NCBI GenBank assembly: GCA_003130845.1
Contig: QEXW01000007.1
Span: forward strand, 1-36,060
Direction: 5' to 3'
DNA: 36,060 nucleotides
From: Anaerolineae bacterium
GTDB lineage: Bacteria > Chloroflexota > Anaerolineae > Anaerolineales > Villigracilaceae
The position numbers were made by a program, and so were the translations under genes. The notes under the pieces were generated by a model. That model did not search any database and was not told where the DNA came from. It saw nothing but the letters and a program-made list of their open reading frames with translations. Of the stretch, positions 8,156-21,799 are shown one piece after another. The stretch's first letter is position 1. Every line of letters starts with the position of its first letter.

Positions 8156-9115
8156 ATGCCTCTCACCCTCAACGACATTCTGGCTGCAGCAGAACGCATA
8201 CGACCCTACATACACCGCACGCCGGTCCTGACCTGTGAAAGCCTCAACCAAAAAGTAGGAGCAAAACTTTTCTTAAAATGTGAAAATCTACAAAAAGTAG
8301 GTGCTTTCAAATTTCGAGGCGCAACCAACGCGGTTTTTTCTCTCTCTGCCACACAAGCAGCACGCGGCGTTGTCGCACACTCTTCCGGCAACCATGCTCA
8401 AGCACTAGCACTAGCAGCACGAATGCGTGGCATTCCAGCCTATATTGTCATGCCCCACACAGCCCCTCAAGTAAAAAAAGAGGCCGTACAAGGCTATGGT
8501 GGACAAATCACGTTTTGCGAACCGACCCTAGAAGCACGTGAAAACACCAAAACTGAAGTCATCGCCCGCACCGGGGCCATCGAAATACACCCCTACAACA
8601 ACGAAATGGTCATTGCTGGGCAAGGCACAGCGGCATTGGAACTACTCCAAGAAGTTCCCGACCTAGACATCATTCTAACCCCGGTAGGAGGGGGTGGCCT
8701 ATTGAGTGGTACAGCCATCGCCGCCACCGAAACACACCCCAATGTGCGCGTCATCGCCGCCGAACCGGAACAAGCCGATGATGCCTATCGCTCCCTACAA
8801 GCTGGCACCATCCTACCCTCGCACAACCCCAAAACGATAGCCGATGGACTACTCACCTCGCTTGGTACACTCACCTTCCCCATCATTCGCGCACGGGTGG
8901 AGCAAATTGTCACAGTCAGTGAAACAGCCATCATCGAAGCCATGCGCTTCACCTGGGAACGCGCCAAAATCATCATCGAGCCATCGGCTGCCGTGCCATT
9001 GGGTCTGCTGTTCGAGCGCAAAATTGACCTGACAGGCAAACGTATAGGAATCATTCTATCCGGCGGAAACGTAGACCTGACCAAACTCCCCTGGCAAGCA
9101 GAAACCCACCCATAA
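8156..9115 (+). CDS. threonine/serine dehydratase-like PLP enzyme (fold type II)
   Basis: PLP-dependent beta-eliminase/racemase of 319 aa. The Schiff-base lysine is Lys52 in AFKFRGA. The substrate loop is SSGNHAQ, the PLP phosphate loop is VGGGGLLSG, and the C-terminal pyridine-contact strand is ILSGGNVDL. It lacks an ACT regulatory domain, so it is the short TdcB/serine-racemase type and not long biosynthetic IlvA. Likely reactions are threonine to 2-oxobutanoate plus ammonia, or serine racemisation/dehydration. AGGAG is 8-9 nt before the ATG. It is followed at once by a strong hairpin terminator. Confidence 0.9.
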   Translation: MPLTLNDILAAAERIRPYIHRTPVLTCESLNQKVGAKLFLKCENLQKVGAFKFRGATNAVFSLSATQAARGVVAHSSGNHAQALALAARMRGIPAYIVMPHTAPQVKKEAVQGYGGQITFCEPTLEARENTKTEVIARTGAIEIHPYNNEMVIAGQGTAALELLQEVPDLDIILTPVGGGGLLSGTAIAATETHPNVRVIAAEPEQADDAYRSLQAGTILPSHNPKTIADGLLTSLGTLTFPIIRARVEQIVTVSETAIIEAMRFTWERAKIIIEPSAAVPLGLLFERKIDLTGKRIGIILSGGNVDLTKLPWQAETHP

Positions 9116-9161: not shown

Positions 9162-10700
9162 TCAGGTGCCCCCAAAGTTCTGGGACGTTTTGGGTGTTAT
9201 CAAGCCGTCTATAGGGTAAGTGTAACAGATTCTGACGTGAGTATAGTCCAGTTCAATTTTGGTGATGAAACGGGTCAAGGTTCGGCGCAAAGCGGCTACA
9301 TCGCCCGCTGTGTGCAGGTCTTCCAGTTCACCGCGCCAAACAGAGAGCGCCAGCGCCAGGGCTTCAGGAGTAATTTCAATCTGTGACGACTGTAAACGCG
9401 CCTCCAATTGGTTGATCTCATAGAGCAAACGGGCTTTTTCACCTTCGCGCTGCTTGAGTCTGTCTTTTACGTCTTGCGTGTCCAATTGACCAGATTCGAG
9501 CAAATCCAGTAAGCGCATTATGCCGCGCTGGGTGATTTTGAGGGCTTCGCGCCTGGTTTCAATTTCGCGTTCTATGATAATGGTGTCTTGAAGTTGAAGA
9601 CGGGTCTCCTCGAGCAGGTCCTTCACAAAAGCAGGGGTAAGGATTCGATTTAGGACTGTCTCAATCACCAGGGTTTCCACCTTGCGCGCGCCAATTCGCC
9701 GGGCGTTGGGGCATAAGTTCCCTTTACGGTCTTTCGTGCCGCAAATGTAATAAGGCCAGTTATGCCCCTTATGATGGACCATTGCCGCGCCGCAATGTGA
9801 GCAAATAGATAAGCCAGCCAGCAGAGAAGGGTAAGCCTTGCTTCTTGGGCTGTTTATGCCGGTTCTAGGTTTGCGTTCTACCCGTTTGACGGCTTCCCAG
9901 GTTTCAGGTGTTATGGCTGGCGGATGGTGATTGTGAAATTCCAGTTCACCACAGCGGGCAATACCCAGATATGAGCGATTCCGAAAGAAGTCTACCCAGC
10001 AGTTGATCGAGCGGTATAACTTGCCGCCAGTTGCCTCTTGGATTTGCTTATAACTTGCGCCTTCGGCGCGCATCCGCCAGGCCAGTTGAACCAGGGGGAA
10101 CAATTCTGGGTCAGGTTCCCAGCGTGACGCCATGCGCGCCTTGCCATCTCTGGTTTCACCGCGTGAAACTTGCACCGCCTTATAACCGCGAGGGGGAATA
10201 CCAGGGGAAAAGCCTTCACGCACCAAGGCAGCTAGGCCGCGCTTTACATCGCGCGAGTTTTGACGCCGCTTTTCTTCATTGGCTATGTCAATCACCTTTT
10301 CTACCAGGCGCGCATAGGGGCCGTCTGGAATCATGTCTGTCAGGGAATGAATAACCACCCCGCGCTTTCTCAGCATGGATTTGTAATAATCCGAATCATC
10401 CACATCGCGCGAGAAGCGAGCAAAATTCCAGATAATCAACCCCTGGGGACGGGTGGCGGGGTCTTTGGTGGCGTCTATCATGGCCATGAATTGGGCGCGC
10501 CCGTCCACTTTACCGCCTGAGCGGGCCACATCTGAAAAAATGTGCGTAAGCGCCAGCCCATGCACGCGACAATAGGCAACAATCTCACGTTCTTGTTGTG
10601 CCGTGCTGCCTTCCTGGGTAGGACCACCTGAATCACGCAAATAGGCGAATACCAGCGAGCCAGGGGGTAGGTCAACGGGGGGTGGATTGTATTCAGGCAT
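9162..10700 (-). CDS. large serine recombinase (integrase/resolvase family)
   Basis: 512 aa in the order: resolvase catalytic domain (about 16-165), recombinase domain (about 180-285), zinc ribbon (CSHC then CG...C, about 297-335) and a coiled coil (about 355-430). The catalytic serine is Ser24 in YLRDSG. Such enzymes integrate or excise DNA at short att sites. GGAGGTGA overlaps the stop of the preceding 62-aa gene and lies about 5 nt before the ATG, so the two are coupled. The stop codon is just outside the attachment core. In the predicted circle the frame continues through LAIGAKAVIIELE and stops 3 nt before xis, giving 525 aa. The integrated form may therefore be slightly truncated. Confidence 0.95.
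   Translation of the reverse strand: MPEYNPPPVDLPPGSLVFAYLRDSGGPTQEGSTAQQEREIVAYCRVHGLALTHIFSDVARSGGKVDGRAQFMAMIDATKDPATRPQGLIIWNFARFSRDVDDSDYYKSMLRKRGVVIHSLTDMIPDGPYARLVEKVIDIANEEKRRQNSRDVKRGLAALVREGFSPGIPPRGYKAVQVSRGETRDGKARMASRWEPDPELFPLVQLAWRMRAEGASYKQIQEATGGKLYRSINCWVDFFRNRSYLGIARCGELEFHNHHPPAITPETWEAVKRVERKPRTGINSPRSKAYPSLLAGLSICSHCGAAMVHHKGHNWPYYICGTKDRKGNLCPNARRIGARKVETLVIETVLNRILTPAFVKDLLEETRLQLQDTIIIEREIETRREALKITQRGIMRLLDLLESGQLDTQDVKDRLKQREGEKARLLYEINQLEARLQSSQIEITPEALALALSVWRGELEDLHTAGDVAALRRTLTRFITKIELDYTHVRICYTYPIDGLITPKTSQNFGGT
9166..9175. repeat. attachment-site core, distal copy
   Basis: GTGCCCCCAA, identical to 21790-21799. It lies in the last four codons of the serine recombinase, whose stop codon (9162-9164) would therefore be host DNA. 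Confidence 0.65.
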
Positions 10701-10704
10701 TCAG

Positions 10705-10893
10705 TCACCTCCGGGGATTTGGATAGATTTTGCCGTCTCTGACAACCAAGACGCCTATGGCCAACAAACCACGCAAGGTGGTCGCCAGGTCGTGGGCTAT
10801 TATAGAGCGGGCGGCCATTTGCGCCGATTCCAGATCGGGGAAAGTTGCGCCGGTGAGTTCTATCAGTTGCAAGTCAGGGATTTTACGTGGCAT
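10705..10893 (-). CDS. small hypothetical protein between primase and recombinase
   Basis: 62 aa, not recognised. I chose the ATG at 10893 because AGGTG stands 6 nt upstream; a TTG further up would overlap the primase stop. It begins 14 nt after the primase and its TGA lies inside the ribosome binding site of the recombinase, so the three genes form one translational unit. It has no TM segment or cysteine pair. A small DNA-binding or accessory factor for recombination is possible but not shown. Confidence 0.7.
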   Translation of the reverse strand: MPRKIPDLQLIELTGATFPDLESAQMAARSIIAHDLATTLRGLLAIGVLVVRDGKIYPNPRR

Positions 10894-10907
10894 GATTACA
10901 CCTGCCT

Positions 10908-12035
10908 TTACCAAATCCAGGATTCTTGACTGGTCAAAGCCAGTAACGCACCAGGATACTTTGCTAGTTCAGATACAAACCATTCTCTAAACAAGCCGGT
11001 TCGATTGTGATAATCGGTGATGTCTTTGTCAAAAGGCATCACCTGTGGCAGAGTCAATCGCTGAAAGTTGAAGCGCGCCAGGTCTTCAGCGCCTTTTTGC
11101 CCGGCTTCGTCCAAGTCATAGACAGTAAAACGATACTTCGGGTACAACAGATACAAGCCCCATGTAGCCACGTTGAAGCGCTTCGCATTGGTTGACGCTC
11201 CCAGTGTGGCTACACCTGCCAGGTCTCCGACTTCCTGCCAGGCCAGCAGGGCGTCAAGTTCACCCTCGGTAAAGACCACCGACCGGTCTTTGAACATGAC
11301 CAGGTTCTCAGCCATGTAAAGGGCGGGCACACTGCCAGGGATGTGGATATATTTAGGGTTACCTTGTGGGCGTCTGATTTTGATATACCAAAGGTCAGCA
11401 CCCACTTGGCAGGGGATGACAAAGCCCTGGGGAAGCCACACTTTAGACTTTCCTTCCTCAACCGGTAGCCCCAAATCGGCGCGCGAGATATACCAGTCTT
11501 TCGGGTTGTAACCTATGCCCCAATGTTGACCGGTCAAAACGCTTAAGCCGCGCTGTAACCACCATTCCACCGGAACCATCCGCTGGGTTATCTTTTCGCC
11601 AGTCTCTCGATCAGTCATGTCGAATTCGGTTTTAGATTCGCGCGATTGTGCAAACGTGTCATACTGCTTGCGGGCATAGGCCATAAATTCGCGCGCGCGC
11701 TTTTGCCAGGCGGGGCCGGGCGGATTGTCTGGCAATTCGTAAATCTCGTCAGCGGGGCGGGGCGTGTAAGGTTGGGCTGGTTCTCCCACAATACGCCGGG
11801 CATCTTCAAGACTGTAACCACGCTTTAAGAAATAGCCAACCGCGCCGCCGTGTTCATTGCACGAAAAGCAATAAAAGCCGGGGTTATGGGTGGCATCGCC
11901 ATTGGTTACCTTAAGACTGGCGGTTTTTTCATTTCCGCCGCCATGAAACGGGCATTTGAAAAAGTAGTTCCTGCCAATCTTGCGCGCCTGTTGATGTAGA
12001 TCGTTTTCGACCAGTCGAATAAAGTCTATTGCCAT
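10908..12035 (-). CDS. DNA primase, CHC2 zinc finger plus TOPRIM
   Basis: Primase of 375 aa for element replication. The CHC2 zinc site is Cys28, His31, Cys56 and Cys59. The TOPRIM-like part has Glu257 in FTEGELDALLA and the acidic pair Asp307/Asp309 in VYDLDEAG. It lacks the C-terminal helicase-binding part of host DnaG (about 600 aa), as plasmid and phage primases often do. AAGG lies about 9 nt before the ATG. It follows the RepA-like ATPase after an 81-bp gap that contains the symmetric GTTGTA array. Confidence 0.93.
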   Translation of the reverse strand: MAIDFIRLVENDLHQQARKIGRNYFFKCPFHGGGNEKTASLKVTNGDATHNPGFYCFSCNEHGGAVGYFLKRGYSLEDARRIVGEPAQPYTPRPADEIYELPDNPPGPAWQKRAREFMAYARKQYDTFAQSRESKTEFDMTDRETGEKITQRMVPVEWWLQRGLSVLTGQHWGIGYNPKDWYISRADLGLPVEEGKSKVWLPQGFVIPCQVGADLWYIKIRRPQGNPKYIHIPGSVPALYMAENLVMFKDRSVVFTEGELDALLAWQEVGDLAGVATLGASTNAKRFNVATWGLYLLYPKYRFTVYDLDEAGQKGAEDLARFNFQRLTLPQVMPFDKDITDYHNRTGLFREWFVSELAKYPGALLALTSQESWIW

Positions 12036-12050
12036 TTTTTCGCCTTTCCG

Positions 12051-12123
12051 GTTGTACCTGTTGTATGTGTTGTAACGCTTCTCACACCTTCAGAAGTGCT
12101 ACAACTGGTACAACGCCTACAAC
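12051..12123. repeat. symmetric array of six GTTGTA/TACAAC repeats with 9-bp period
   Basis: GTTGTA occurs at 12051, 12060 and 12069, and TACAAC at 12100, 12109 and 12118. Both triplets have an exact 9-bp period and the whole is symmetric about 12087. A short inner hairpin (CTTCT / AGAAG) lies in the middle. The outermost copy overlaps the stop of the RepA-like gene. The layout suggests repeated protein-binding sites in mirror order, such as a replication origin or recombination accessory site; a large RNA hairpin is the alternative. Confidence 0.8.
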
Positions 12124-13298
12124 TGGGTTACCAACTCATAATAAACTTCTGATGTTTGCGCGAGTGAGATGCGCCTTATCTTGCCGTCATTGACCAGGTC
12201 TTGTAACCGTCCGTGACAATTACTTTTATCCTGTCCTGTTACTTCTGCAATTTCTTTGAGATTTGCCCGTCCTAAATCACGCAAAGCATCAAGAATCGCT
12301 TTTCTTTTAGCAGTTAACTCAACATCACTCGCTACGCCCTCACAATGCCAGTAAAAGCCGCGCAGGTCAAAAACAAGTTTTAATTCGGTTTCAGCGACAT
12401 CTCGCCCGGTAATTGCGAGTTTTGCGCCTGCCCTGCCTTGTTCTTTGTATAGCCCCCACAAAGAATCGGTTACGCCCGCTTTTCCCACACTACCGTAGAT
12501 GTGATCAATCGGGTTTTGGGTAGGGGCATTCTTGGGCATGTGATCAATAATGACCAGCGCTACGCCCTTGTTTAGTGCATACTGCTGCAGGGGGCCGATG
12601 GCCTCCGTCATTTCTCCCGCGTCCAACTGGTCACCCTGAATTGCCCTGCTAAAAGTATCTACAATCACCACACGGTAACGATTTTTCTCAATGAATTTCA
12701 AGAGACGTTTACCACCACCAGCATTCAAAGCCGTGATCTGGTCCATAAACGCATCCGACATCATAAAATCAACAGAGCCTGGGGAAACGTTCCAATTCTG
12801 TTTTTTCATGCGGTCGTTTAAGCGCCGTTCGTTGTCTTCCAATGCCAGGATCAGCACCCGACCAGGCTTAACGTCTTTCCCAAACATTTTCCCACCGGTT
12901 AGTACCGAATTGGCCAACTGTAAAGCCAGCCAACTTTTTCCAACTTTTGGCTTGCCCACAAGAAAAGTGAGACCAGGCGCAAGGTATTCAGGAACTATCC
13001 AATCAATTGGTGGGTATTCGGTCTTCAAAATGAGCGCCGCGTCAACGGTCTTCAAGGGAGGCAGTAAACTCTCAATTTCAGGGGACGAATTCCCAACACT
13101 CAAAGCCTCGTTCAAAATGTGAGAGTTGAACTTCTCCATTTTTGCGCGTAAATCAGCTGGTAAAGCAGATAAATACAGAGCCAAAGCCCGTTTAGCCTCT
13201 TCGGGATTGGGTGTATAATGTTCTAAACGTTCCCCTTCGGACGTTTCGGATTTTGCCCCGGTTCTTCCCGCCGGGGCATTTTTGTTTGTGTTTTCCAT
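12117..13298 (-). CDS. RepA-like AAA ATPase/helicase (AAA_25 type), copy 1
   Basis: 393 aa. Walker A is GKPKVGKS (residues 115-122), Walker B is VVIVDT (about 210-215), and a further VIIDHMPKN strand follows, as in hexameric RepA/RSF1010-type helicases. The C-terminal 70 residues look like a winged helix (KAILDALRDLGRANLKEIAEVTG). The frame is open to 13361, but AGGAG sits 8 nt before the ATG at 13298. Next to the primase it should form the replication module. A candidate antisense RNA overlaps its first codons on the + strand. Confidence 0.88.
   Translation of the reverse strand: MENTNKNAPAGRTGAKSETSEGERLEHYTPNPEEAKRALALYLSALPADLRAKMEKFNSHILNEALSVGNSSPEIESLLPPLKTVDAALILKTEYPPIDWIVPEYLAPGLTFLVGKPKVGKSWLALQLANSVLTGGKMFGKDVKPGRVLILALEDNERRLNDRMKKQNWNVSPGSVDFMMSDAFMDQITALNAGGGKRLLKFIEKNRYRVVIVDTFSRAIQGDQLDAGEMTEAIGPLQQYALNKGVALVIIDHMPKNAPTQNPIDHIYGSVGKAGVTDSLWGLYKEQGRAGAKLAITGRDVAETELKLVFDLRGFYWHCEGVASDVELTAKRKAILDALRDLGRANLKEIAEVTGQDKSNCHGRLQDLVNDGKIRRISLAQTSEVYYELVTQL
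13191..13284 (+). ncRNA. candidate antisense RNA over the start of the RepA-like gene
   Basis: A + strand TATAAT at 13214-13219 has a weak TTTAGC 17 bp upstream (13191-13196). After a predicted start near 13226 come one hairpin (AAACGT / ACGTTT, 13225-13246) and a GC-rich terminator (TGCCCCGG / CCGGGGCA, 13254-13278) followed by TTTTTGTTT. The roughly 60-nt product would pair with codons about 5-25 of the - strand rep mRNA, as plasmid copy-control RNAs do. Entirely a pattern-based prediction. Confidence 0.45.
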
Positions 13299-13764
13299 AA
13301 TGTCATCTCCTAGTGTCGAAAAGATAGCCAGGCGGGGCAGCAACACACTAACCCCAAGCACTGATTGAAGGTTTTTCCGGGCATTTCCACGCTTTGCAAA
13401 ATGCCGACCTGATCGAGCGTTTCCAGGAAAAAGGCGGAATTTTGCGCCCTATTTACTCCTAGGACGTTCGGCTTCAAAAGGGTAAAATGCCCCCTCCCCC
13501 CTACCTGCCCAGTCTGTGCCTGTCCGAATGCCGTGCTATAGTCCACCGAACAGGACCAACCCAATGCCTGGCGAGTAGATCAAGTACCACAAGAAAAGCC
13601 GCTAGGTAGCGCCTAAGCCAAAACGTCAGAGACCATCCCGCCCACCCCAAAAACGCCATTCGTTGATAGGCTTCACTATCGGTATTAATCTATCAGTACC
13701 TTTGTCATCACTCTATCGGTATCAGACTTTTGTTAAGGTTCTGTGTTTTTGTGATTTAGGTCTG

Positions 13765-13817
13765 TGTCTGTGTGTCTGTCTACCCCCCTTTTAAGGGGGT
13801 AGACAGACACACAGACA
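13765..13817. repeat. perfect 23-bp inverted repeat (7-nt loop)
   Basis: Left arm 13765-13787, right arm 13795-13817, loop CTTTTAA. The arms combine a TGTCTGTGTGTCTGTC repeat with a run of five C/G. There is no U-tract directly after it on either strand, so it is not a standard terminator. A single-strand origin or other structural role is possible. Confidence 0.85.
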
Positions 13818-13882
13818 AGCATAAGTTCCTGGGCTGGGCTTTTTCCCAGCGCGCGGCCACACAACTATAAATGCCAGCAGAA

Positions 13883-13902
13883 AACGAATAAAGGGATTCG
13901 TT
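13883..13902 (-). terminator. possible weak terminator after the 167-aa gene
   Basis: Seven-base stem AACGAAT / ATTCGTT with a 6-nt loop, followed on the - strand by TTTTCTG. It lies about 50 nt after the stop of the 167-aa gene. Confidence 0.35.
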
Positions 13903-13949
13903 CTTTTCAGCCAGATTTTATTGCTGTGCGGCCTCGCCCCGCCGCGCTA

Positions 13950-14453
13950 TCACTCACCCAGCGCCGCGTACAAGGTGACCAGTTTGCGAAATGCGTCACC
14001 ATACCAGGCGTATTCGTAAATGTCAAAGTAGATTTCTTTATGTGAAAACGCCTTCTTGATTTCCTCATCATCCATGCCTACCAGAGCGATTAGAATGCCG
14101 CTTGTCAGAAGGTGTTCAAATATACAATCCAACTGCCCGCCGTCATCTTCGCCATACAAAAAATACCGATCTGCTTCCCCAGGTGGAAACAGCCCCCGGA
14201 TAAGTTCCCCTATCCGTTCGGCTTCATGCTGTCTTTTCTGAATAAACAATTTGCGTTCTATCCGTCTGGCTTTGGCGCAAAAATCTAAAGCCGCCGCGCG
14301 CCGCCGGTAGACTTCGGCTAGTCTCCCTAATTGCAGCCCGCCTAAGTGTAAAAACTGGTCCAGGTCAAAGTCAGCATCCCCCACAACCAACCGCCGCGCA
14401 CGCCTGTAAAGGTTGTCTATTTTTTCTTCGGGCAAGTATTCTCTAGTTTTCAT
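13950..14453 (-). CDS. hypothetical protein, 167 aa
   Basis: Not recognised. It starts inside the end of the upstream RepA-like copy 2 (11-nt overlap), which indicates translational coupling. Residues 1-80 are helical and rich in Arg/Lys and Glu (RRARRLVVG, RRIERKLFIQKRQHEAERIGELI); the rest is acidic and aromatic (FDIYEYAWYGDAF). No cysteine motif or TM segment. Coupling to a helicase-like ATPase suggests a replication accessory role, but this is only context. Confidence 0.75.
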   Translation of the reverse strand: MKTREYLPEEKIDNLYRRARRLVVGDADFDLDQFLHLGGLQLGRLAEVYRRRAAALDFCAKARRIERKLFIQKRQHEAERIGELIRGLFPPGEADRYFLYGEDDGGQLDCIFEHLLTSGILIALVGMDDEEIKKAFSHKEIYFDIYEYAWYGDAFRKLVTLYAALGE

Positions 14454-15732
14454 CTTCGCCGCCTTCGGCCAGCCGGTAAATTTTTGCGCCTTTGTTGCCA
14501 GCCCTAAAAATAATCTCTCGTGTGCCTTCCAGGGTGGCTATAGCATCCCTGATACTCTTGTCGCTGAGTTCCGGCTTCAACATTTTGACCGCCGCTATTA
14601 GTTCGGTCTGGTTACGTTTCCCAGCGGTCAAAATCTGCAAAATGGTGTCACGCGCCTTCGAGAAATTGGTCTGCCAGGTCAAGCGCCAGAAGCGCGCTTC
14701 GAGTAATTCAAGGTTTGCATCTTGCTTATAACTGAATTGGGCTGAGACATTGGGGGTTTCAGCCCCGCGCACCGCAACCGGGATCAGTTTGATATTTGCC
14801 CTGTCCACCCTGTCGCGTTCAATCAGATAAGCCGCGTCCACATTCGCCAAAATCGCGCCATGCCCGCGTAGTTGGTCCTCAGGCGCGCCGCCGTCTTTGC
14901 CCTGCCCTTTTTTGGCGTGGTGAATGAGAATAATTGCCAGGTTGCGCGCCTCTGAGATATTTCGTATGTTTCCCATGACTTGCGATATTAGCGGGCTGTT
15001 CTCATCAATTGCGCCCAATGCCTGCCCCAGGTGATCAATGACCAAAATCCCTACATCACCCAATTCGTCTAGGCGGTTAATCAGCGCGGCCACGTTTTCG
15101 GGTTGACTAAGGTCTGGCCAGGGGTTTGGCATGGAATACGCCAAAAACCGCCCGCGTTCTGGTTCGCGCCCCAGTGCCCGCGCGATTGCCTTCATGCGGC
15201 GCTTGAGGGTGGCCGCGCCGTTTTCCAGGTCCAGCCATACCACGCGCGCCGGGTTGACCTGTAAGCCATTGTCGCCTTGCGGGTTTGAAAGCCAGGGCTG
15301 CGGCCCAGCGACATGAAGACACATATCCAAAACCAGCAGGCTTTTGAGTGACTTCGGTTTGCCAAACCAAGCGGTAACACTAGGGCGAGATACAAATGGC
15401 TTGACCAGCCACTCCACCGGGGGCAGGTTTTCGGTAATCACATCTGCCAGGTCAAAGGCTTTCCACCCAACCCCGCCGCGCAATACGGCTAAATCGGTCT
15501 CCGGGTCTGCGTTGATCACCTGCTCAATCAGCGGGACCAGGTTGAGCGCTTTGAGTTCCTTTTCCAGCCTGGCCCAGCGCGCCGCGCCGCTCGGCCCTTC
15601 GCTGTGGACTGCCAGCGCAATGCCAAGCATGGGAACAGGCAGGGCCGCAAAATCCGCCGCTGCCAGTCCCCCGCCACCGTCCCTGACCAGCCGTTTGAAG
15701 AATGCCGGGATGTAATCGGTTTGGGTTGTCAT
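14443..15732 (-). CDS. RepA-like AAA ATPase (AAA_25 type), copy 2, with non-canonical P-loop
   Basis: 429 aa. The P-loop reads GKPKSLKS (residues 124-131): Leu129 replaces the usual glycine before the lysine. Similar PKSxKS P-loops occur in this family. Walker B-like VIDHLGQAL and a sensor strand IILIHHAKKG follow, and then RGHGAILANVDAAYLIE. The N-terminal 100 residues differ from copy 1, and the C-terminus carries a winged-helix-like segment (RNQTELIAAVKMLKPELSDKSIRDAIATL). Two such ATPases in one element suggest separate roles, for instance helicase and loader or regulator. Confidence 0.85.
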   Translation of the reverse strand: MTTQTDYIPAFFKRLVRDGGGGLAAADFAALPVPMLGIALAVHSEGPSGAARWARLEKELKALNLVPLIEQVINADPETDLAVLRGGVGWKAFDLADVITENLPPVEWLVKPFVSRPSVTAWFGKPKSLKSLLVLDMCLHVAGPQPWLSNPQGDNGLQVNPARVVWLDLENGAATLKRRMKAIARALGREPERGRFLAYSMPNPWPDLSQPENVAALINRLDELGDVGILVIDHLGQALGAIDENSPLISQVMGNIRNISEARNLAIILIHHAKKGQGKDGGAPEDQLRGHGAILANVDAAYLIERDRVDRANIKLIPVAVRGAETPNVSAQFSYKQDANLELLEARFWRLTWQTNFSKARDTILQILTAGKRNQTELIAAVKMLKPELSDKSIRDAIATLEGTREIIFRAGNKGAKIYRLAEGGEDEN

Positions 15733-15747
15733 GGTCTGGTCGCCCTG

Positions 15748-15933
15748 CTACTCATCGCTTTGGCTGCCCGTCTGGTTAGGGTCTGGAAAAATGAGCAGCC
15801 CGCGCCGGGCCAGTTCCTGGCGCAGAATATAGCGGGCTTGTTCATCGGGGGCGCGCAGGTCAAGCCGTGAGAGTTTGACCAGGGCCTCGAATTCGGGCTG
15901 TTCCAACAGTATCTTGATTTTGACAATGCTCAT
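15748..15933 (-). CDS. small ribbon-helix-helix-like protein, 61 aa
   Basis: The N-terminal strand MSIVKIKILLEQPEFEALVKL and the helix DEQARYILRQELARRGLL resemble RHH/Arc-type small DNA-binding proteins. AGGTG lies 5-6 nt before the ATG. It ends 15 nt before RepA-like copy 2, so it could be an autoregulator of that replication unit. Assignment is by pattern only. Confidence 0.65.
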   Translation of the reverse strand: MSIVKIKILLEQPEFEALVKLSRLDLRAPDEQARYILRQELARRGLLIFPDPNQTGSQSDE

Positions 15934-15948
15934 GGTTCACCTGAAAAC

Positions 15949-15983
15949 ATAAAAGGCAACGTTTTTTGTCCGTTGCCTTTTAT
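15949..15983 (-). terminator. hairpin between the 217-aa gene and the RHH-like gene
   Basis: Perfect 13-base stem (ATAAAAGGCAACG / CGTTGCCTTTTAT), 9-nt loop, with A/U-rich arms on both sides. It can end transcription of the 217-aa gene. The downstream start codon is only 16 nt away, so it may also act as an attenuator. Confidence 0.7.
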
Positions 15984-16051
15984 TCTGACTTCAGGCATTC
16001 CAGATGGAAAATACCAGTTTTAATCAGGTTACTCCAGGTTATCTTAAATTT

Positions 16052-16705
16052 TCATGACCTTTTATCCCTGTTTTGGCGTTTGTGTTTCCCTGCTTTGCGA
16101 TAAGGGATGTTTACTTTTTTTCGGCCTTTACTGCCCTGCCGGTATTCTGATATGACATTCTCAACTTGTGCCCCCGATACGTTTGCAACACCTTCGCGGT
16201 TCAGCATTTTGGCAATATCCTGACAAGTTAAATCAGTACGGCTTACATACAAACCCACGGCCAGCCTGTGCCAGTCTTCATCTGGCACGCCTAAATCTTC
16301 TGCAATCTTTTCCCACTTCTGAACCTCTGCCGATTTTTTGTTATCTCCTTTTGGAGTATCAGCGGGTGAACCTGCGGGCAGCTGTGGCGCTTGTTTTTTG
16401 AACGGTCCGCCCCACACTACGCCCCGGTTGACCAACTTCTGCCAGAGTGCTTCAAGTTTGGCAGTTCCAGAATTATTTTCAAAAACGAATACCCGCGCAT
16501 CACAACCGTATTCTTTTTCAGTAAAACGGATATTAAAGCCCAACGCCTGAATGTAAAGTTCAACCGGCCCCCACCCCCCGCTGAGATGATTTTCTACTCC
16601 GTTCTCAAATAGTGTTCTACTCACCAAAGAAGACAAAGTAACCGCATCGCGGTTTGAGTGGGATACCCATTCACGTTCTGTTTGTTTTTCGTCCAGATTA
16701 TCCAT
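16052..16705 (-). CDS. hypothetical protein, 217 aa, with strongly basic C-terminus
   Basis: Not recognised. Residues 1-95 look globular (VELYIQALGFNIRFTEKEYGCDARVFVFE). A Pro/Lys linker is followed by about residues 125-190, which look helical and HTH-like (TDLTCQDIAKMLNREGVANVSGAQVENVISEY). The last 25 residues are mostly Lys/Arg. DNA binding is likely. GAGGTGAGG lies just before the ATG. The leader is covered by a candidate antisense RNA on the + strand, and a hairpin terminator follows. A replication initiator or regulator is possible but unproven. Confidence 0.75.
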   Translation of the reverse strand: MDNLDEKQTEREWVSHSNRDAVTLSSLVSRTLFENGVENHLSGGWGPVELYIQALGFNIRFTEKEYGCDARVFVFENNSGTAKLEALWQKLVNRGVVWGGPFKKQAPQLPAGSPADTPKGDNKKSAEVQKWEKIAEDLGVPDEDWHRLAVGLYVSRTDLTCQDIAKMLNREGVANVSGAQVENVISEYRQGSKGRKKVNIPYRKAGKHKRQNRDKRS

Positions 16706-17008
16706 GCCCTCACCTCGCAGTTATCCGCCCTTGCGCCGGTGAGTCTGTCTGATACAATCACCACGCATGAGCCGCATCTCATGCCCCAGGGCGTGACCTG
16801 TTCCTACCAGGTCCCGCCTTTTTTGTTGGGGGTTGGGAAAATTTTACCCCTAAAACAAAATCACGCATAAAGAGCCAGGCGCGCTAAAAGCCTGCCTGCT
16901 GGGGTTGCGTTACGGTCACAGTCTCATTGTAACAATTAAGGCATCGCTGCCCCTCTCACACCTGCCCACCACCCCACCCAGCCGGGTGATGGGCAGTTCG
17001 TCAGAAGG
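16706..17008. other. 303-bp intergenic stretch
   Basis: Besides the candidate small RNA in its left half, I see only AT-rich sequence around 16840-16870 that may hold the - strand promoter of the 217-aa gene. The right half (16870-17008) shows nothing clear. Confidence 0.5.
16729..16823 (+). ncRNA. candidate small antisense RNA upstream of the 217-aa gene
   Basis: TTGCGC (16729-16734) and TACAAT (16751-16756) are 16 bp apart on the + strand. From a start near 16763 the RNA would contain a 7-bp hairpin (GCATGAG / CTCATGC, 16763-16782). A terminator stem follows (GGCG-GACCTG / CAGGTC-CGCC, 16788-16816, one mismatch), ending in TTTTTT. Size is about 60 nt. It is antisense to the leader of the - strand 217-aa gene and has no coding capacity. 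This promoter, hairpin and terminator layout resembles plasmid copy-control RNAs. Confidence 0.55.
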
Positions 17009-17263
17009 TCAGAGTAAAGCCAGTTGCACAGGTTTTCGGGCTGGGATTGTCCAGGATACACCGACTAAGTGGTGGGCTAGGTTGTATTCTTCAATCCAGG
17101 ATTCGGCTAAAGCGCGTGTGTTCTCTATTGCCTGTTGCAATCCCGCGCCGTGGTTGCGCCCGCCGCAGATGCAATCGCAGTCTGGTTCGTGGGCTTCGTA
17201 GCAGCGCGCATCACAGCGCCCCATGCAGCCTTCCGAGTTGTACACCGCGATTAGTGTTGTCAT
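17009..17263 (-). CDS. cysteine-rich 84-aa protein
   Basis: Small soluble protein with six cysteines within its first 35 residues (CMGRCDARCYEAHEPDCDCICGG), then GRNHGAGLQQAIENTR. The compact Cys pattern suggests metal binding. Similar small proteins occur on mobile elements, but the function is unknown. AGGTGACGGC precedes the ATG, which overlaps the stop of the upstream zinc-ribbon frame as ATGA. That overlap argues that both are translated. Confidence 0.75.
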   Translation of the reverse strand: MTTLIAVYNSEGCMGRCDARCYEAHEPDCDCICGGRNHGAGLQQAIENTRALAESWIEEYNLAHHLVGVSWTIPARKPVQLALL

Positions 17264-17421
17264 GCCGTCACCTTTTGCGTCTTGCGCATGTAGTACGCTT
17301 GCTGTTTACAGGCTAAATTGCAATACTTCCGCCGCCCGGCCCGTCCTGTTGTGATTAGTTTTCCGCAGGCTGGGTTTGCGCATCGCCGGTACTCTGTGAC
17401 TTCGCGCCGGGGTCGAAAGGG
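17260..17421 (-). CDS. zinc-ribbon reading frame without a start codon (possible -1 frameshift product)
   Basis: Encodes EYRRCANPACGK, then YCNLACKQQAYYMRK: a CX4C-X14-CX3C zinc ribbon like those of many small phage and plasmid proteins. The frame is open from 17466 to the TGA at 17260-17262 but contains no ATG, GTG or TTG before the ribbon. It overlaps the end of the 328-aa gene in the -1 frame. A canonical X-XXY-YYZ slippery heptamer, C-CCT-TTC (17415-17421), lies at the entry point. Its stop overlaps the next ATG (ATGA). I start the feature at the slippery site; the real start is unknown. Alternatives are a non-standard start codon or a lost start. Confidence 0.5.
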   Translation of the reverse strand, partial: PFRPRREVTEYRRCANPACGKLITTGRAGRRKYCNLACKQQAYYMRKTQKVTA

Positions 17422-18341
17422 CGGGCGGGCGCGCCGTCTCCCTTCGCAAACTTTGGCACGCTCAAGTCAAAATACATCTTGCGCCCATTTCCGTTGCCGT
17501 TCACCCAAGGCAGGGAAACGCCCGCTAGTAAGCCCATCAGCGGGGAGCCATTCGCCGGTTGCGGTTGTCCGCCGTCCAGTTCTGCCAGCCGATGGTCAGT
17601 ATAGTTCTTGTGCTTTTCGAGCGCCGCGCGTTCGCAGACAGTCGAGCAGTACAGCCTATCACCCGTTACAGGCTTACCACAATGCAGGCACAAGAAATCG
17701 CCCGACTTTTTCACCACAGGCAGGGCAGGCGCGTCTTTGGCGGTTGCATCAATGGTCGGGATGATTCCTGTCCCCAGGTTCGCTAGGTAACGCGCGCGGC
17801 TGTTCTGCATCCAGTCCGCCGCCAGCATGGGCGCGACCTGTGCCGCCAGAGTATCAGCGTTCTGGCTAATTTGTTTCAGCGTGGCGTCTTCGACTTTTGC
17901 GAAGGCTTCTTCTTCCGCCTGTTCTTTGAGTTTTTCGGGGTCGGTCAGGTGATGGGCAACTGTGGCCGCGATATTCAGGGCAATGACGCCAGAAAGCGCC
18001 AGCACCGCGCTTTGTATTTCATCCGGGGTCAGGGCGGTTGTCATGCCGCTTTTGCCGGTCTGGTAAAGCGTGTCCAGCGTGAACATGGCCACCGCGCCCA
18101 CCAAGTCAACCAGGACCATCAGGATACTGATAGCCCGCTGCCACCCGCCGCGTGAGCCGTACAGGTAGGCGAGTATCCAGGCAATCAAGCCACCATCCAA
18201 GGCTGCCAGCCCGAAATACGCTAGAATTTGACGGTCAGGGGGCAAGGTGAGCATGATGAAGTCCAGTGAACGGGTTGCAGAATATACCAGCAGCAGCCCG
18301 CCCAGGATGGTGACAAGTAACGCGCCGATTTTTTTGAACAT
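17355..18341 (-). CDS. four-TM membrane protein with cytoplasmic zinc motif
   Basis: 328 aa, not recognised as a named family. Four hydrophobic helices lie at about 7-24, 40-60, 70-92 and 110-130. A charged helical stretch (135-175) follows, then a zinc motif with Cys218, Cys221, Cys232 and Cys236 (CLHC-X10-CSTVC), and a disordered Gly/Pro/Gln tail. AAAGGAT precedes the ATG. The last 30 codons overlap the zinc-ribbon frame, so a -1 shift near Phe309 would replace the tail by a second zinc ribbon. Role unknown: membrane anchoring of element DNA or sensing are guesses. Confidence 0.8.
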   Translation of the reverse strand: MFKKIGALLVTILGGLLLVYSATRSLDFIMLTLPPDRQILAYFGLAALDGGLIAWILAYLYGSRGGWQRAISILMVLVDLVGAVAMFTLDTLYQTGKSGMTTALTPDEIQSAVLALSGVIALNIAATVAHHLTDPEKLKEQAEEEAFAKVEDATLKQISQNADTLAAQVAPMLAADWMQNSRARYLANLGTGIIPTIDATAKDAPALPVVKKSGDFLCLHCGKPVTGDRLYCSTVCERAALEKHKNYTDHRLAELDGGQPQPANGSPLMGLLAGVSLPWVNGNGNGRKMYFDLSVPKFAKGDGAPARPFDPGAKSQSTGDAQTQPAEN

Positions 18342-18367
18342 GTTTTTTATCCTTTCGTATTGGGGAA

Positions 18368-18586
18368 TTAGGGTTGGGAAAAAATAATTTGACGGATTTC
18401 GTCATGGTCAAGACATCTATCACAATACCAGTACCCCCTTGGGCAAAATGCGCCCTCTTGGTTGGCATAGTACCAGGCATTTTCGGGCGTCTCTTCGTGT
18501 GTAGAAGACTGCCCACAAAAATGGCACTCATACCAGTAGGTTGTCTTGTGGATAACTTGCGTCTTGCTTGGCAAGGTGTTAGGCAT
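18368..18586 (-). CDS. small zinc-finger protein, 72 aa
   Basis: Contains ECHFCGQ and, 22 residues later, FCPRGYWYCDRC, giving two CX2C-type pairs suited to one zinc. The frame runs further upstream into the SH3b gene, but GGAGG 10 nt before the ATG at 18586 makes this the better start. It begins 2 nt after the SH3b stop and ends 26 nt before the four-TM gene. Function unknown. Confidence 0.7.
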   Translation of the reverse strand: MPNTLPSKTQVIHKTTYWYECHFCGQSSTHEETPENAWYYANQEGAFCPRGYWYCDRCLDHDEIRQIIFSQP

Positions 18587-18588
18587 GG

Positions 18589-18972
18589 CTATTTGCCCTC
18601 CTGGCAGTAGCGGACATACACATAGCCGGTCAGTCCATCCGGGGTTCGCACCGTCACCCACACACCAGGCTGGATGACTTCGAGCGCGTCACCTTCGGTT
18701 AGGACTGCCAGCACCGGACAAGATACGGAGCCGCACGCTCGCAGGTTCACGCGTCCGCCATCCATGCCCGAGCGAATGACACACCAGGGCGTGGCGGTTG
18801 GGGTTGCCTGGAGGGGCAGGGGCGAGGGTGTGACGGTTGGACGCCCCGCCGCAAACAGTGCCGCCCGTTGCCCGCCGCCCGCCCCGGCCTGGAGAGATCG
18901 CCCCACGAAAGCAGCGTAGAACGTGCCCAAAAGAATAATCACGGTCAATAGCAAAACGAACACGCGCCGCAT
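18589..18972 (-). CDS. exported or membrane-anchored SH3b-domain protein, 127 aa
   Basis: The N-terminus MRRVFVLLLTVIILLGTFYAAFVG is a signal peptide or anchor without a lipobox. A Pro/Thr linker (residues 45-60) leads into a bacterial SH3 domain (about 70-122: VNLRACGSVSCPVLAVL, then WVTVRTPDGLTGYVYVRY). Two nearby Cys and one near the end could form disulfides. SH3b domains bind peptidoglycan or peptides. On a mobile element this could affect the cell surface. Part of the small-gene cluster 18972-17009. Confidence 0.8.
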   Translation of the reverse strand: MRRVFVLLLTVIILLGTFYAAFVGRSLQAGAGGGQRAALFAAGRPTVTPSPLPLQATPTATPWCVIRSGMDGGRVNLRACGSVSCPVLAVLTEGDALEVIQPGVWVTVRTPDGLTGYVYVRYCQEGK

Positions 18973-18997
18973 AATGGTTGCCTATCCTTTCTTCGAG

Positions 18998-19074
18998 TAG
19001 AATTTGTTAGGGGACGTTACCTATCCCGCCCCCTGCCCGTCCCGTTTCGCGCCGATTCCGGGATGGGCTTTTTT
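18998..19074 (+). ncRNA. weaker candidate antisense RNA with terminator
   Basis: TAGAAT (18998-19003) without a good -35 is followed by AGGGG / CCCCT pairing and a terminator stem GCCCGTCCCG / CGGGATGGGC (19035-19068, one G-U) ending in TTTTTT on the + strand. The terminator is convincing; no + strand gene needs it. It lies between the 80-aa gene and the SH3b gene, antisense to the latter's leader. Confidence 0.3.
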
Positions 19075-19315
19075 ACCGTTGCACCAACAGCCCTTTGTGA
19101 GCGCGGTAAGCGCGGTCAAAGTCTGTTGCCAGTTCTGACCAAACTTCATCAGCCATTGACCAGCAATGCCCGCGCGTGTCGCGTTCGGCTTCCAGAGCTG
19201 CTTCTTCGGGGGTGTCGAAAATCAGCAACCGGGCTACATTTTCCCAATTGCCATGCGACCAGCGGATGACCGCCCGCTGTTCTTCGACTGCCTGTTTGAT
19301 TTGTTCGGGTTTCAT
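19073..19315 (-). CDS. hypothetical protein, 80 aa
   Basis: Not recognised; acidic/polar, with VIRWSHGNWENVARLLIFDTPEEAALEAERD. The frame opens at 19375, but GGAGG 8 nt before the ATG at 19315 favours the shorter form. No TM segment or cysteine pair (one Cys). It follows the HTH regulator gene and leads the small-protein cluster. Confidence 0.65.
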   Translation of the reverse strand: MKPEQIKQAVEEQRAVIRWSHGNWENVARLLIFDTPEEAALEAERDTRGHCWSMADEVWSELATDFDRAYRAHKGLLVQR

Positions 19316-19422
19316 GCGTTTTTCCTCCAATGTGTGAAATTCAGCCAGCAGGCGCGCGCCCGCTGTAGCCTTCAAGGTTGTAGGCGGCCCGGCTTGCCCA
19401 CATCATGCGCTGTTTGGGCAGG

Positions 19423-19821
19423 TCACAGGGCCGCCGGGGTTATTTTTTTCTGTCCACGCCCCCGGCTGCCTTTTCGTTTGCGGTTGGAGATTTCTTCAAG
19501 CAAATGTCGAGCGGCTTTATATTTTTTTTGCCTTCGCAGTTCGTGCCATCGGTCCCATTCAGCGGGCGTCATTTTTGCCAAAAAACGCCCTAGCTGTACG
19601 GGATATTTTCGCCCACACGTGGGACATGCGCGCGGTTCCAAACCAAGCGCAGCCCGAATCGCCTGATTTGCAATATCCCGCCGTCCGGTTGCGTAATCTC
19701 GCCAAGCCTGGTGAGAAAGATTGACGCCATACAGGTCATTCAGTGTCTCGGCCGTTTTTCGCCATGAACGGGCTTTTGAGTAGACTTTTTGCACAAGACG
19801 GGGTGAGCATCGCTTTTTCAT
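19423..19821 (-). CDS. HTH/zinc-motif DNA-binding protein, 132 aa
   Basis: Residues 10-55 read as a helix-turn-helix (RSWRKTAETLNDLYGVNLSHQAWRDYATGRR). A CPTCGR half-site (about 66-71) and a basic tail (NRKRKGSRGRGQKK) follow. Proteins of this layout are common on phages and integrative elements; a regulatory role is inferred. An 11-bp inverted repeat (19838-19863) stands right before the start codon, as expected for an autorepressor operator. Confidence 0.75.
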   Translation of the reverse strand: MKKRCSPRLVQKVYSKARSWRKTAETLNDLYGVNLSHQAWRDYATGRRDIANQAIRAALGLEPRACPTCGRKYPVQLGRFLAKMTPAEWDRWHELRRQKKYKAARHLLEEISNRKRKGSRGRGQKKITPAAL

Positions 19822-19837
19822 TTTTCGCGCCTTCTAG

Positions 19838-19863
19838 GGGGTGTAGCAAGCGTGCTACACCCC
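19838..19863. promoter_or_regulatory. 11-bp perfect inverted repeat, candidate operator
   Basis: GGGGTGTAGCA and TGCTACACCCC separated by AGCG, 17-43 nt before the HTH gene start. There is no U-tract on either side, so a protein-binding site is more likely than a terminator. Confidence 0.55.
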
Positions 19864-19934
19864 AGAAAAACAGGGATAGTGTACAGTTGAAAACCTGTGT
19901 ATTTTGTATGCATCTTCAGTAGTCATTCACAAAC

Positions 19935-19965
19935 AAAAAAAGGCTGCATCCCGTGGATGACAACC
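19935..19965 (-). terminator. terminator of the tyrosine integrase gene
   Basis: On the - strand GGTTG-T-CATCC pairs with GGATG-CAGCC (one bulge, one G-U) around an ACG loop, followed by seven Ts. It lies 63 nt after the integrase stop. Confidence 0.75.
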
Positions 19966-20028
19966 CTTTTAGCCATCCTCCCGCCCAGGTCAGCAGGCAG
20001 GCATTACTCAAAACAGGTGGCAAGGCGG

Positions 20029-21087
20029 TCATGGCTGAGACTCTTCCGAACCCAGATTCACGCCGTCATTATCCGCCTGGCCGCGTTCGATATAGCGTGC
20101 CGCGCTTGTGGGGCTTTCCCAGCCGCCCCAAGCCATGAGCGCCGCCAGGCTTACTTTGGGGTCATGCCCGGCTTTGGTTGCGCCGTAGTGCCTGCAATCA
20201 TGCGGGCTGAGAGATTCGATTCCAATCGCCCGCCCCAATGCGCGCACCCGCGCATTGATTGCCCGCTCAGACATGCAAGAGCCAGGAATCAGCCCGCCGC
20301 TTTTGTTACTACCCAGGAAAAGCGGCCCGCTTTGGGCGTGTTGGTCTTTTTCGAGATATTCCACCAGGCAAGCCCATGCACGCCCACGCAAAACATGACG
20401 GGATGTGCGCCCAGTCTTGGGGCGGTAAAAAGTCATCTGCCTGGTTTCAAGATTGAAATTTTCAACTTTCAACCCAGCCGCCTCACTCACCCGCAAACCA
20501 TGATCCAAAAGCAGGCACATCAGCAGCGCATCGCGCCGCCCCTGTGGGGTGGGGGGTTGGGTTTTCAATTTGCGCGCCTGGTCATCGGTAAGTAGGGTAG
20601 CAGCCGCTTTTTTTGCGCCCTTGCGGGTGGCCAATCCTTGATCAGCGCGCGCCCGGTCGGTATCCACCGCCTCTTTTCGGGTGTAGCCGCGCAGGGATTG
20701 AAGCCGCAAAATCTCACTATCCGGGATGATTCCCGCCTGGTTTGCCAGCGCCATATAAACCTTGACGACACTCACCCGGTCATTGACCGTTTTCACACTG
20801 TAGCCTTGTTTCAACATCCAAAACTGAAAGCCCTGCACCAGCCCCCAGCCAATGCCCAGCCAGGCGGCCGGGTCGCTGTAAAGGTCTGGCACGGCTACGC
20901 CTTCGGCGCGCATGTACTCAGCAAACAAGGCCAGCGCCGCCCGCTGAGCGCGCCGGGTGTTTTCTGGCCGCCGTGCCTGATAGATGGCAAAGACCGCGCG
21001 CGCCGCCGCTTCATTCGCCGCCTGCCCAAAGGTTGCCAGGGTAGGGGCGGGAGCATTCTCCAAAGTTGGGATAATCTGGGTAAACAT
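20029..21087 (-). CDS. tyrosine recombinase/integrase
   Basis: 352 aa with an N-terminal SAM-like core-binding domain (about 25-125) and a catalytic domain (about 170-340). The catalytic residues are Arg199 (GLRVSE), Lys224 (PKTGR), His296/Arg299 (HDCRHYGAT), Trp323 in the second His position (GGWES) and nucleophile Tyr332 (ARYIE). AGGAGG lies 6 nt before the ATG. Its place near tRNA-Glu next to xis is the classic position of an integrase that targets tRNA 3' ends. The element also carries a serine recombinase, so which enzyme performs integration is open. Confidence 0.95.
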   Translation of the reverse strand: MFTQIIPTLENAPAPTLATFGQAANEAAARAVFAIYQARRPENTRRAQRAALALFAEYMRAEGVAVPDLYSDPAAWLGIGWGLVQGFQFWMLKQGYSVKTVNDRVSVVKVYMALANQAGIIPDSEILRLQSLRGYTRKEAVDTDRARADQGLATRKGAKKAAATLLTDDQARKLKTQPPTPQGRRDALLMCLLLDHGLRVSEAAGLKVENFNLETRQMTFYRPKTGRTSRHVLRGRAWACLVEYLEKDQHAQSGPLFLGSNKSGGLIPGSCMSERAINARVRALGRAIGIESLSPHDCRHYGATKAGHDPKVSLAALMAWGGWESPTSAARYIERGQADNDGVNLGSEESQP

Positions 21088-21461
21088 GAAAGCCTCCTGT
21101 GTTATGACCTGAATGATTTTGACATCGAACGATTACCTTCTAAAATGGGCGGTCCCGAATTGAACGGGATGGGTGGGTTACTCGTCTTTTCGCCCGCGCG
21201 TGTCGCCATCCACGCCGCCGCCCTGGTTTTGCTGTTAGGTTTTGCGCGCCCTAGTCCCTCAATTTTAGTCATCTCAGCCGCGCTTCACAGCGTGGCCCTG
21301 TCCGCTTCCCACGGCCAGGCAGAGCGCGCTAGGTTGTTAAGGTTCTCTTTCGTATTCGCAACAGTAAGAGCCTAAAAAATAAGCCGCGTCACTCGGCTTA
21401 CTATTGCGTTTGCAAAAGAGTATAGCGAAAATAAAAACGTCTGTCAATAGAACAGACGTTT
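21088..21461. other. 374-bp gap between xis and integrase
   Basis: Holds two - strand terminators at the xis side and a long leader before the integrase. In that leader a 77-nt stretch (21147-21223) has a tRNA T-arm-like hairpin with a TTCAATT loop and 6-bp outer pairing, but no proper anticodon arm. No gene supported. Confidence 0.5.
21373..21400 (-). terminator. second terminator after xis
   Basis: Stem TAAGCCG / CGGCTTA with a 7-nt loop, followed on the - strand by TTTTTTAGG. It backs up the stronger hairpin 31 nt upstream. Confidence 0.65.
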
Positions 21462-21465
21462 TTAT
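21431..21465 (-). terminator. terminator overlapping the xis stop codon
   Basis: Perfect 14-base stem (ATAAAAACGTCTGT / ACAGACGTTTTTAT), 7-nt loop, then TTTTCGC on the - strand. It would end the tRNA-Glu-xis transcript before the integrase. Confidence 0.85.
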
Positions 21466-21743
21466 TCTTTTTTCTGGATTTTCCCCCGAGTAGGGTCATT
21501 TTTACTCATGCCGCGCGTCTGGTCAAGGTATTCTTTGACTGATTTTCTTGACACAAGATAGATTTTGCCAACAGGCAAAGCCTCTAACTTCTGAATTTTG
21601 ATTAACCGCCGAACACCTGCTTCAGTTATTCCAAGTTCCTGAGCGGCTATTTTTACGGTCATAAACTCTGACAGATCAGGCATAAGTGTTGGGAGTGCGG
21701 TATCACAGGCAAAGAAACGAAAACGGGTTGAAAGTCGCATCAT
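21462..21743 (-). CDS. xis: excisionase-like MerR/HTH_17 DNA-binding protein
   Basis: 93 aa. The central segment EFMTVKIAAQELGITEAGVRRLIKIQKLEALPVGKIYLVSRKSVKEYL is the excisionase-type winged HTH (about residues 27-75), with a basic tail. Such proteins bend att DNA and steer integrase towards excision. GGAG is 6 nt before the first ATG. In the integrated state it lies directly downstream of tRNA-Glu on the same strand, with no terminator between, so tRNA read-through may express it. In the circular form it would follow the serine recombinase gene by 3 nt. Confidence 0.85.
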   Translation of the reverse strand: MMRLSTRFRFFACDTALPTLMPDLSEFMTVKIAAQELGITEAGVRRLIKIQKLEALPVGKIYLVSRKSVKEYLDQTRGMSKNDPTRGKIQKKE

Positions 21744-21789
21744 GGTTTACTCCAATTCGATGATGACGGCTTTTGCCCCGATTGCGAGT

Positions 21790-21799
21790 GTGCCCCCAA
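21790..21799. repeat. attachment-site core, tRNA copy
   Basis: GTGCCCCCAA: the last 9 nt of tRNA-Glu (complement) plus one trailer base, repeated at 9166-9175. Confidence 0.65.

Follow-up and report, generated by a model that had tools for sequence, protein, structure and literature searches.

One-way control of serine integrases is usually credited to directionality factors. In mycobacteriophage BPs and its relatives, which show integration-dependent immunity, the phage attachment site (attP) lies inside the repressor gene, according to the accessible parts of PMC4557955 and PMC8092301. Integration of the archaeal elements SSV1, pTN3 and pT26-2, which carry "suicidal" tyrosine integrases, disrupts the element's own integrase gene (excerpts of PMC8371274), and genomic islands at tRNA 3' ends, as mapped by Islander and TIGER, bring an end that restores the tRNA sequence (excerpts of PMC4383910 and PMC12884075). 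Here, we analysed an integrated element in an Anaerolineae bacterium, using the entire contig QEXW01000007.1 (36,060 nucleotides (nt); hereafter the window). The element lies between two copies of a short core, one at the 3' end of a tRNA-Glu gene and the other within the final codons of a large serine recombinase gene (Table 1). This recombinase is probably the element's integrase, with attP inside the 3' end of its own gene, and integration very probably swaps a conserved C-terminal tail for host codons. At the level of DNA, the architecture, the tail, its conservation and the swap at the core are features of these loci; the behaviour of the two enzyme forms is discussed below in conditional terms.

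The window recombinase matched the Pfam families Resolvase (6.5e-19) and Zn_ribbon_recom (4.7e-12) above their cut-offs, and Recombinase at 6.3e-4 (20.4 bits, just under the cut-off of 21.1), so that a single protein carries the three parts of a large serine recombinase. It also matched the integrase family phrog_95 (5.7e-62). An empty site was found in one genome of the same genus (L138), where downstream of tRNA-Glu there is a hairpin with a T run (read by eye) and then, about 140 base pairs (bp) past the tRNA, the 3' end of the gene that in the window flanks the element on the side opposite tRNA-Glu (positions 8156-9115; by eye a putative threonine dehydratase), at 77% identity. Because of this empty site, the present stop codon of the recombinase can be assigned to host DNA outside the core, as the first-pass annotation of this DNA had proposed. 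Joining the ends of the element in silico kept the frame open, again as that annotation had claimed: the recombinase becomes 525 residues long, ends in GGTLAIGAKAVIIELE and stops at TAA (21749-21747), 3 nt before the ATG of a xis-like gene (21743). Two details of the earlier description need correcting. The stop codon does not lie over the ribosome binding site of xis but comes after it, the GGAG being inside the last two codons of the tail. Likewise, the recombinase is not fused to xis; the tight gene order before xis stands, and the two genes are probably coupled in translation.

A match to this recombinase at E<=0.001 was present in 46 of 150 related genomes (the window's own included), and 34 of 400 genomes in a wider draw had one at 1e-60, while phage and plasmid records gave only matches below 60% identity (21-27% among the matches listed). 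For 28 loci, counting the window, we read the end of the gene. None of the 27 other homologues ends at GGT, which means that none shares the present end of the window gene, a comparison that the first-pass annotation had suggested as a check; the sequence after the core also differs among them. In L022, L023, L027 and L028, and likewise in L182, the end of the recombinase gene lies antisense over a tRNA gene. Genome G264 holds two copies that are 92% identical over 918 nt, and their blastn match stops at the last base of GGGGGCAC.

Nine relatives have a second core copy, 6.7 to 8.6 kb upstream. It lies at the 3' end of tRNA-Glu in L006, L008, L009, L010 and L012 and of tRNA-Val in L013, L014 and L017 (eight of nine in all), and adjoins no recognised tRNA in L007. 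With the window, these relatives gave ten in-silico circles (window, L006-L010, L012, L013, L014 and L017); for the other 18 of the 28 loci (L003-L005, L011, L015, L016 and L018-L029) the DNA ended or a second core was not found, and no circle was built. The tails read from the joined ends include WMKGEKSIMVEWSK, RIIRGEKSVTIEWSKS, PLKSETPIMIEWSTK and CLFSDKPLMVEWSSR and, for tRNA-Val, LFFRRIDHYSIEIEME, and they resemble GEKSIMVEW. The copies in the chromosome hold other codons at this position, often running into a hairpin followed by T's (by eye). About 13-18 residues of tail are lost on integration. The earlier proposal of a short integrated and a long circular recombinase describes the window and, with it, seven of the ten pairs, but the integrated frame is the longer one in L006, L012 and L017. 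On sequence, the constant feature across pairs is a conserved tail swapped for host codons.

L012 deserves separate mention. Its end repeat is 36 bp, against about 10 to 14 bp in the others, and part of the tail is therefore retained when the element is integrated. The core is also read in a different frame there. By hand count, 30 nt rather than 31 separate core and tail, which keeps GKSIFVSWE in frame. The attB (bacterial attachment site) used by this element may be the scar of an earlier, related element. Two further homologues, L011 and L015 (about 46% identical), have a C-terminal extension of about 90 residues that looks helix-turn-helix (HTH)-like by eye, with no core at the gene end.

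The circular arrangement was also found in nature. Two IMG/VR sequences, L075 (16,029 bp) and L076 (15,910 bp), have exact end repeats of 123 and 103 bp, respectively, and are thus complete circles. Each has one core and no tRNA (in all of L075, and in L076 beyond its first 875 bases). In both, the recombinase gene is contiguous through the core, ending in GGTQIIRGEKSIMVEWR (L075) and GGTYIIRGNKSIMVEWSK (L076), and the HTH gene follows directly. The first-pass annotation had named a circular junction located elsewhere as evidence against its prediction; in these two relatives, the junction is where it was expected. L075 is 69% identical to L056, which by its coordinates is the integrated L007. 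Past the core, the gene end of L007 departs from L075 (9 and 6 of 30 nt matching), whereas the other end of L007 follows it (21 and 20 of 30 nt); ungapped matching upstream of the core is low (6-17 of 30 per block), and only the blocks after the core were used. Scans for more free forms with L075, the window enzyme, L013 and the tyrosine enzyme as queries returned L075 again or nothing. In all 12 circles (ten in silico, two natural), the stop codon of int falls within -16 to +7 nt of the first xis start. An open frame of 13 codons across an arbitrary join is in itself not rare, and the earlier argument that such a join would seldom arise by chance does not hold on the frame alone. It is the comparative evidence that carries it: given the two natural circles with the same arrangement, the 12 of 12 stops at the xis start and the nine tails conserved in frame, we consider a chance join to have a practically negligible probability.

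The conservation of the tail was analysed in the coding frame. For nine tails, ten codons were compared such that the ribosome binding site was excluded (the W residue and everything after it being left out). Aligned by eye on the EW motif, they gave a BLOSUM62 score of 18.6 per pair, against 5.6 (standard deviation 3.9) in column shuffles; one of 5,000 shuffles, which ignore the relatedness of the sequences, reached the observed score. There were no stop codons in the true frame and 4-12 in the shifted frames, and mismatches by codon position were 0.48, 0.29 and 0.53. A second set came from viral genes: in 20 viral loci the core lies 50-85 nt before the stop, and the 19 distinct tails (LYRHSIKLVYE-like) scored 8.9 against -2.5 (standard deviation 2.5) when shuffled, with none of 2,000 shuffles reaching this value, although the set keeps L087 and L096, which look like host ends. 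The core lies in the last 150 nt of the open reading frame (ORF) in 17 of 28 homologues (window included) and in 22 of 53 viral loci (IMG/VR L075-L127), where the background in the rest of these ORFs is 0.018 and 0.008 per 150 nt, respectively. Among the 22 viral genes, which have GGGGGCAC in this position, many then share a [LI]YR[HQ]..F... tail. Several of these viral tails are followed by a terminator-like hairpin, the stem of which is coded by the last residues.

To place the tail in the protein, the natural L075 form (540 residues) was modelled with AlphaFold2 from a 43-row alignment, giving a mean predicted local distance difference test score (pLDDT) of 85.9 and a predicted template modelling score of 0.53. 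In the model, two C-terminal strands (residues 487-493 and 496-501) are followed by a disordered stretch, 506-530, in which the residues coded around the core lie, and by a strand in the tail at 533-538 (block mean pLDDT 79). The window form is predicted to be disordered from residue 501. The L075 model aligned with the serine integrase structure 9dxh, which we take to be the SPbeta integrase, with a Z score of 17.0 over 463 residues at a root-mean-square deviation of 12.2 (large, the domains being placed differently), and with 4kis with a Z score of 13.1 over 296 residues at 10.4. As judged from this relative, the enzyme has the fold of the solved serine integrases. Among the structure rows listed, we took 19 to be large serine integrases (Bxb1, phiC31, LI and others). 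Sixteen of them align no further than model residue 502-509, one reaches 527, and two cover N-terminal parts only. Since 16 of the 19 go no further than 502-509, the tail has probably been added to a serine integrase that is complete without it. No solved equivalent of the tail strand was found among the alignments listed, the furthest of which ends at residue 527, which is no proof of absence.

These data bear on the possibility that the tail is incidental, attP merely overlapping the gene end while the peptide reflects recombinase-binding DNA and the ribosome binding site of xis, with both enzyme forms behaving alike. The tail does sit in the attP arm, its EWS residues coincide with the GGAG of xis, many homologues do not have the arrangement, and the body for catalysis and DNA binding, which spans what most of the listed solved integrases contain, is retained on integration. 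Nevertheless, the codon-frame signal persists once the W and everything after it are excluded and recurs in the phage-clade tails, the frame in L012 is compensated, and a strand is predicted for the peptide, which together make an incidental tail improbable in our view. Inverted repeats flanking the core were considered as proof of a constraint acting on DNA only, and were dropped: in none of the 12 cases did the best 18-mer exceed the shuffled maximum, the lowest counts being 3 (L007) and 10 (L013) of 100 shuffles. This result speaks neither for nor against a constraint on the DNA, and some constraint is to be expected from the attP arm.

A different reading of the lost tail is that integration disables the integrase and locks the element until a complete copy arrives. 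The arbitrary look of the host-coded ends fits such a loss, for which the accessible parts of PMC8371274 provide a precedent among archaeal tyrosine integrases. Only 13-18 residues are lost, however, beyond the part present in most of the listed solved serine integrases, and the 31 homologue rows better than 1e-30 show no internal stop, so the bodies of these genes stay open. We therefore regard a disabled integrase as unlikely.

The serine enzyme is not the only recombinase on the element, which also encodes one of the tyrosine type. Tyrosine integrases commonly use tRNA genes, as stated in the accessible part of PMC4383910, and the tyrosine gene of the window is near the tRNA end; it might thus move the element, leaving the overlap between serine gene and core a coincidence. 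However, among 28 related regions (several of which hold part of an element only, and four of which repeat others), it had matches only in L075 and L076 (61 and 69% identical) and none in the nine two-ended integrated relatives, while serine and HTH genes are present in all nine as well as in both natural circles, which makes the serine enzyme the likely integrase. Moreover, the core recurs in the end of the serine gene far above background. The tyrosine recombinase was accordingly rejected as the mover, a role that we consider very improbable for it; it appears to be accessory here and may serve dimer resolution or a second mode of integration. Downstream of the HTH gene, the L076 circle also encodes a second serine recombinase (12719-14431), which is 36% identical along most of its length. 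The HTH protein itself may be a recombination directionality factor: it is small, adjoins int in all 12 circles, and is encoded behind the tRNA when the element is integrated and behind int when it is circular.

On the preferred reading, in which integration exchanges the end of the integrase, the following cycle can be proposed. In the circle, int would continue past the core with the codons of the conserved tail, for which a beta strand on a flexible linker is predicted, and would end where xis starts, making int and xis one tightly spaced unit with the xis Shine-Dalgarno sequence written in the last codons of the tail. Recombination at the 3' end of the tRNA would remove the tail and give the enzyme an arbitrary host-coded end; in the window, the integrated form would have no residues beyond the core. 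Integration would also leave a terminator-like hairpin, probably tRNA-Glu's own terminator, behind int, and put xis directly behind the tRNA. Two protein forms of the recombinase and altered expression of xis on excision, both anticipated by the first-pass annotation, may follow from this arrangement of the DNA. Our best guess is that both forms would be made and active, the circular form integrating and the integrated form excising together with Xis. The tail swap could then help to make the reaction one-way, and would be reset on excision.

Several observations weigh against this interpretation. The exact core is absent from the last 150 nt in 11 of the 28 homologues; three of these carry it at a more upstream position (L012, L021 and L024), three end in a tRNA (L022, L023 and L028), and no core was found in L005, L011, L015, L025 and L029. 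Similarly, 31 of the 53 viral loci have no core in this region, some being truncated where the contig stops. In the L075 alignment, the tail is present in only two rows, both close. The tail overlaps the attP arm, so part of its conservation may act at the level of DNA. The circle of the window element was built in silico only, no circle or reads of that element having been seen, and the three longer integrated forms, together with the part of the tail that L012 retains, complicate a simple loss. Finally, if Xis is a directionality factor, its co-expression with int in the circle should oppose integration.

This puzzling coupling would be solved if the tail rendered the enzyme insensitive to Xis. 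As a tentative extension, less probable than not in our estimation, a large and mostly uncultured clade of serine integrases might use its own attachment site as a direction switch at the protein level: the tailed enzyme of the circle would integrate even with Xis present, its C-terminal strand blocking or replacing the action of Xis, and the tail-less integrated enzyme would respond to Xis for excision. If this were true, the enzyme's state would be set by that of the DNA, and prophage-mined enzymes would come without their native tail.

The remaining features of the element are included in Table 1. The small ORF just upstream of the recombinase had matches in 13 of the 28 related regions (L054 repeats L004) and is a frequent partner of the module, with no Pfam or PHROG match. 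A consensus search of the window gave no terminator-like site between tRNA-Glu and xis. After xis, a hairpin at 21430-21466 (15 counted pairs) overlaps the -35 box of a promoter-like site, and this overlap (21419-21466) may be terminator and operator in one.

Table 1. Positions of the element, its junction sequences and neighbouring features in the window.
Feature	Position	Strand	Basis or remark
Integrated element, 12,624 bp	9166-21789	recognised genes on -	core present twice; tRNA-Glu adjoins one end; L138 has the empty site
Core copy GTGCCCCCAA within final codons of serine recombinase	9166-9175	+	
Core copy GTGCCCCCAA, 3' end of tRNA-Glu	21790-21799	+	
tRNA-Glu (CTC), attB target	21863-21790	-	ARAGORN
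Large serine recombinase (integrase), 512 residues in integrated form, ends ...NFGGT	9162-10700	-	
Present stop codon TGA, host DNA outside core	9164-9162	-	
Circular-form tail LAIGAKAVIIELE then TAA; also attP arm on that side of core	21747-21789	-	
Shine-Dalgarno GGAG of xis, inside last two codons of tail	21753-21750	-	read by eye
xis-like HTH_17 protein, 93 residues	21462-21743	-	Pfam HTH_17 1.9e-7; phrog_66 excisionase 5.5e-5
Tyrosine-type second recombinase, accessory here	20029-21087	-	Pfam Phage_integrase 4.8e-22
Small conserved ORF, 69 residues, just upstream of recombinase	10705-10914	-	
Terminator-like hairpin, now behind int	9151-9120	-	consensus match only; 5 found vs 2.6 expected
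Promoter-like site upstream of tRNA-Glu, TTGACG-17-TACAAT, 10/12	21914-21886	-	consensus match only; 5 found vs 1.0 expected
Promoter-like site, 11/12, overlapping hairpin 21430-21466	21447-21419	-	consensus match only

In a literature search, with most subscription papers outside its reach, we recognised no report of a serine integrase whose attP overlaps the 3' end of its own gene. Since attP within a gene is known from the BPs repressor and the archaeal tyrosine integrases, and no such serine integrase was found, the present case appears to be a new variant, in which each integration may alter the enzyme through its own gene. This would allow the function of the C-terminal tail to be tested directly, with constructs that are about 13-18 residues apart. 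This may also concern enzyme mining. A catalogue of serine integrases for genome engineering was, according to the accessible part of PMC10083194, built from Prodigal coding sequences of genomes by comparing element-holding with element-free ones; should that catalogue include enzymes of this clade, their ends would be coded by the host and the native tail would be missing.

The window element can thus be set against the described systems. Compared with the solved large serine integrases (Bxb1, phiC31 and Listeria innocua LI), the domain order and body fold are the same, and the linker and tail strand are extra; to our knowledge, attP of the solved enzymes lies outside the coding frame. Islands of the Islander/TIGER type are described, in the accessible parts of those papers, as catalysed by tyrosine integrases, whereas in the window element the tRNA end is part of the coding sequence of a serine integrase. 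In the archaeal suicidal integrases, as far as the excerpts describe them, a tyrosine integrase gene is split into int(N) and int(C), with the catalytic domain in int(C); the window enzyme is a serine recombinase of which the last residues alone change, the domains staying together and the body intact. At the DNA level, the element resembles BPs and its relatives, where attP also lies within a coding gene and the integrated form has a different C-terminus (shorter in the prophage than in the virus); the accessible parts of the BPs papers also describe some sites at tRNA 3' ends and one group that gains seven bacterial codons. In BPs and its relatives, however, integration splits the gene of the immunity repressor, and the tail that is lost usually bears an ssrA-like degradation tag, whereas in the window element the integrase itself is altered and its lost tail resembles a structured strand.

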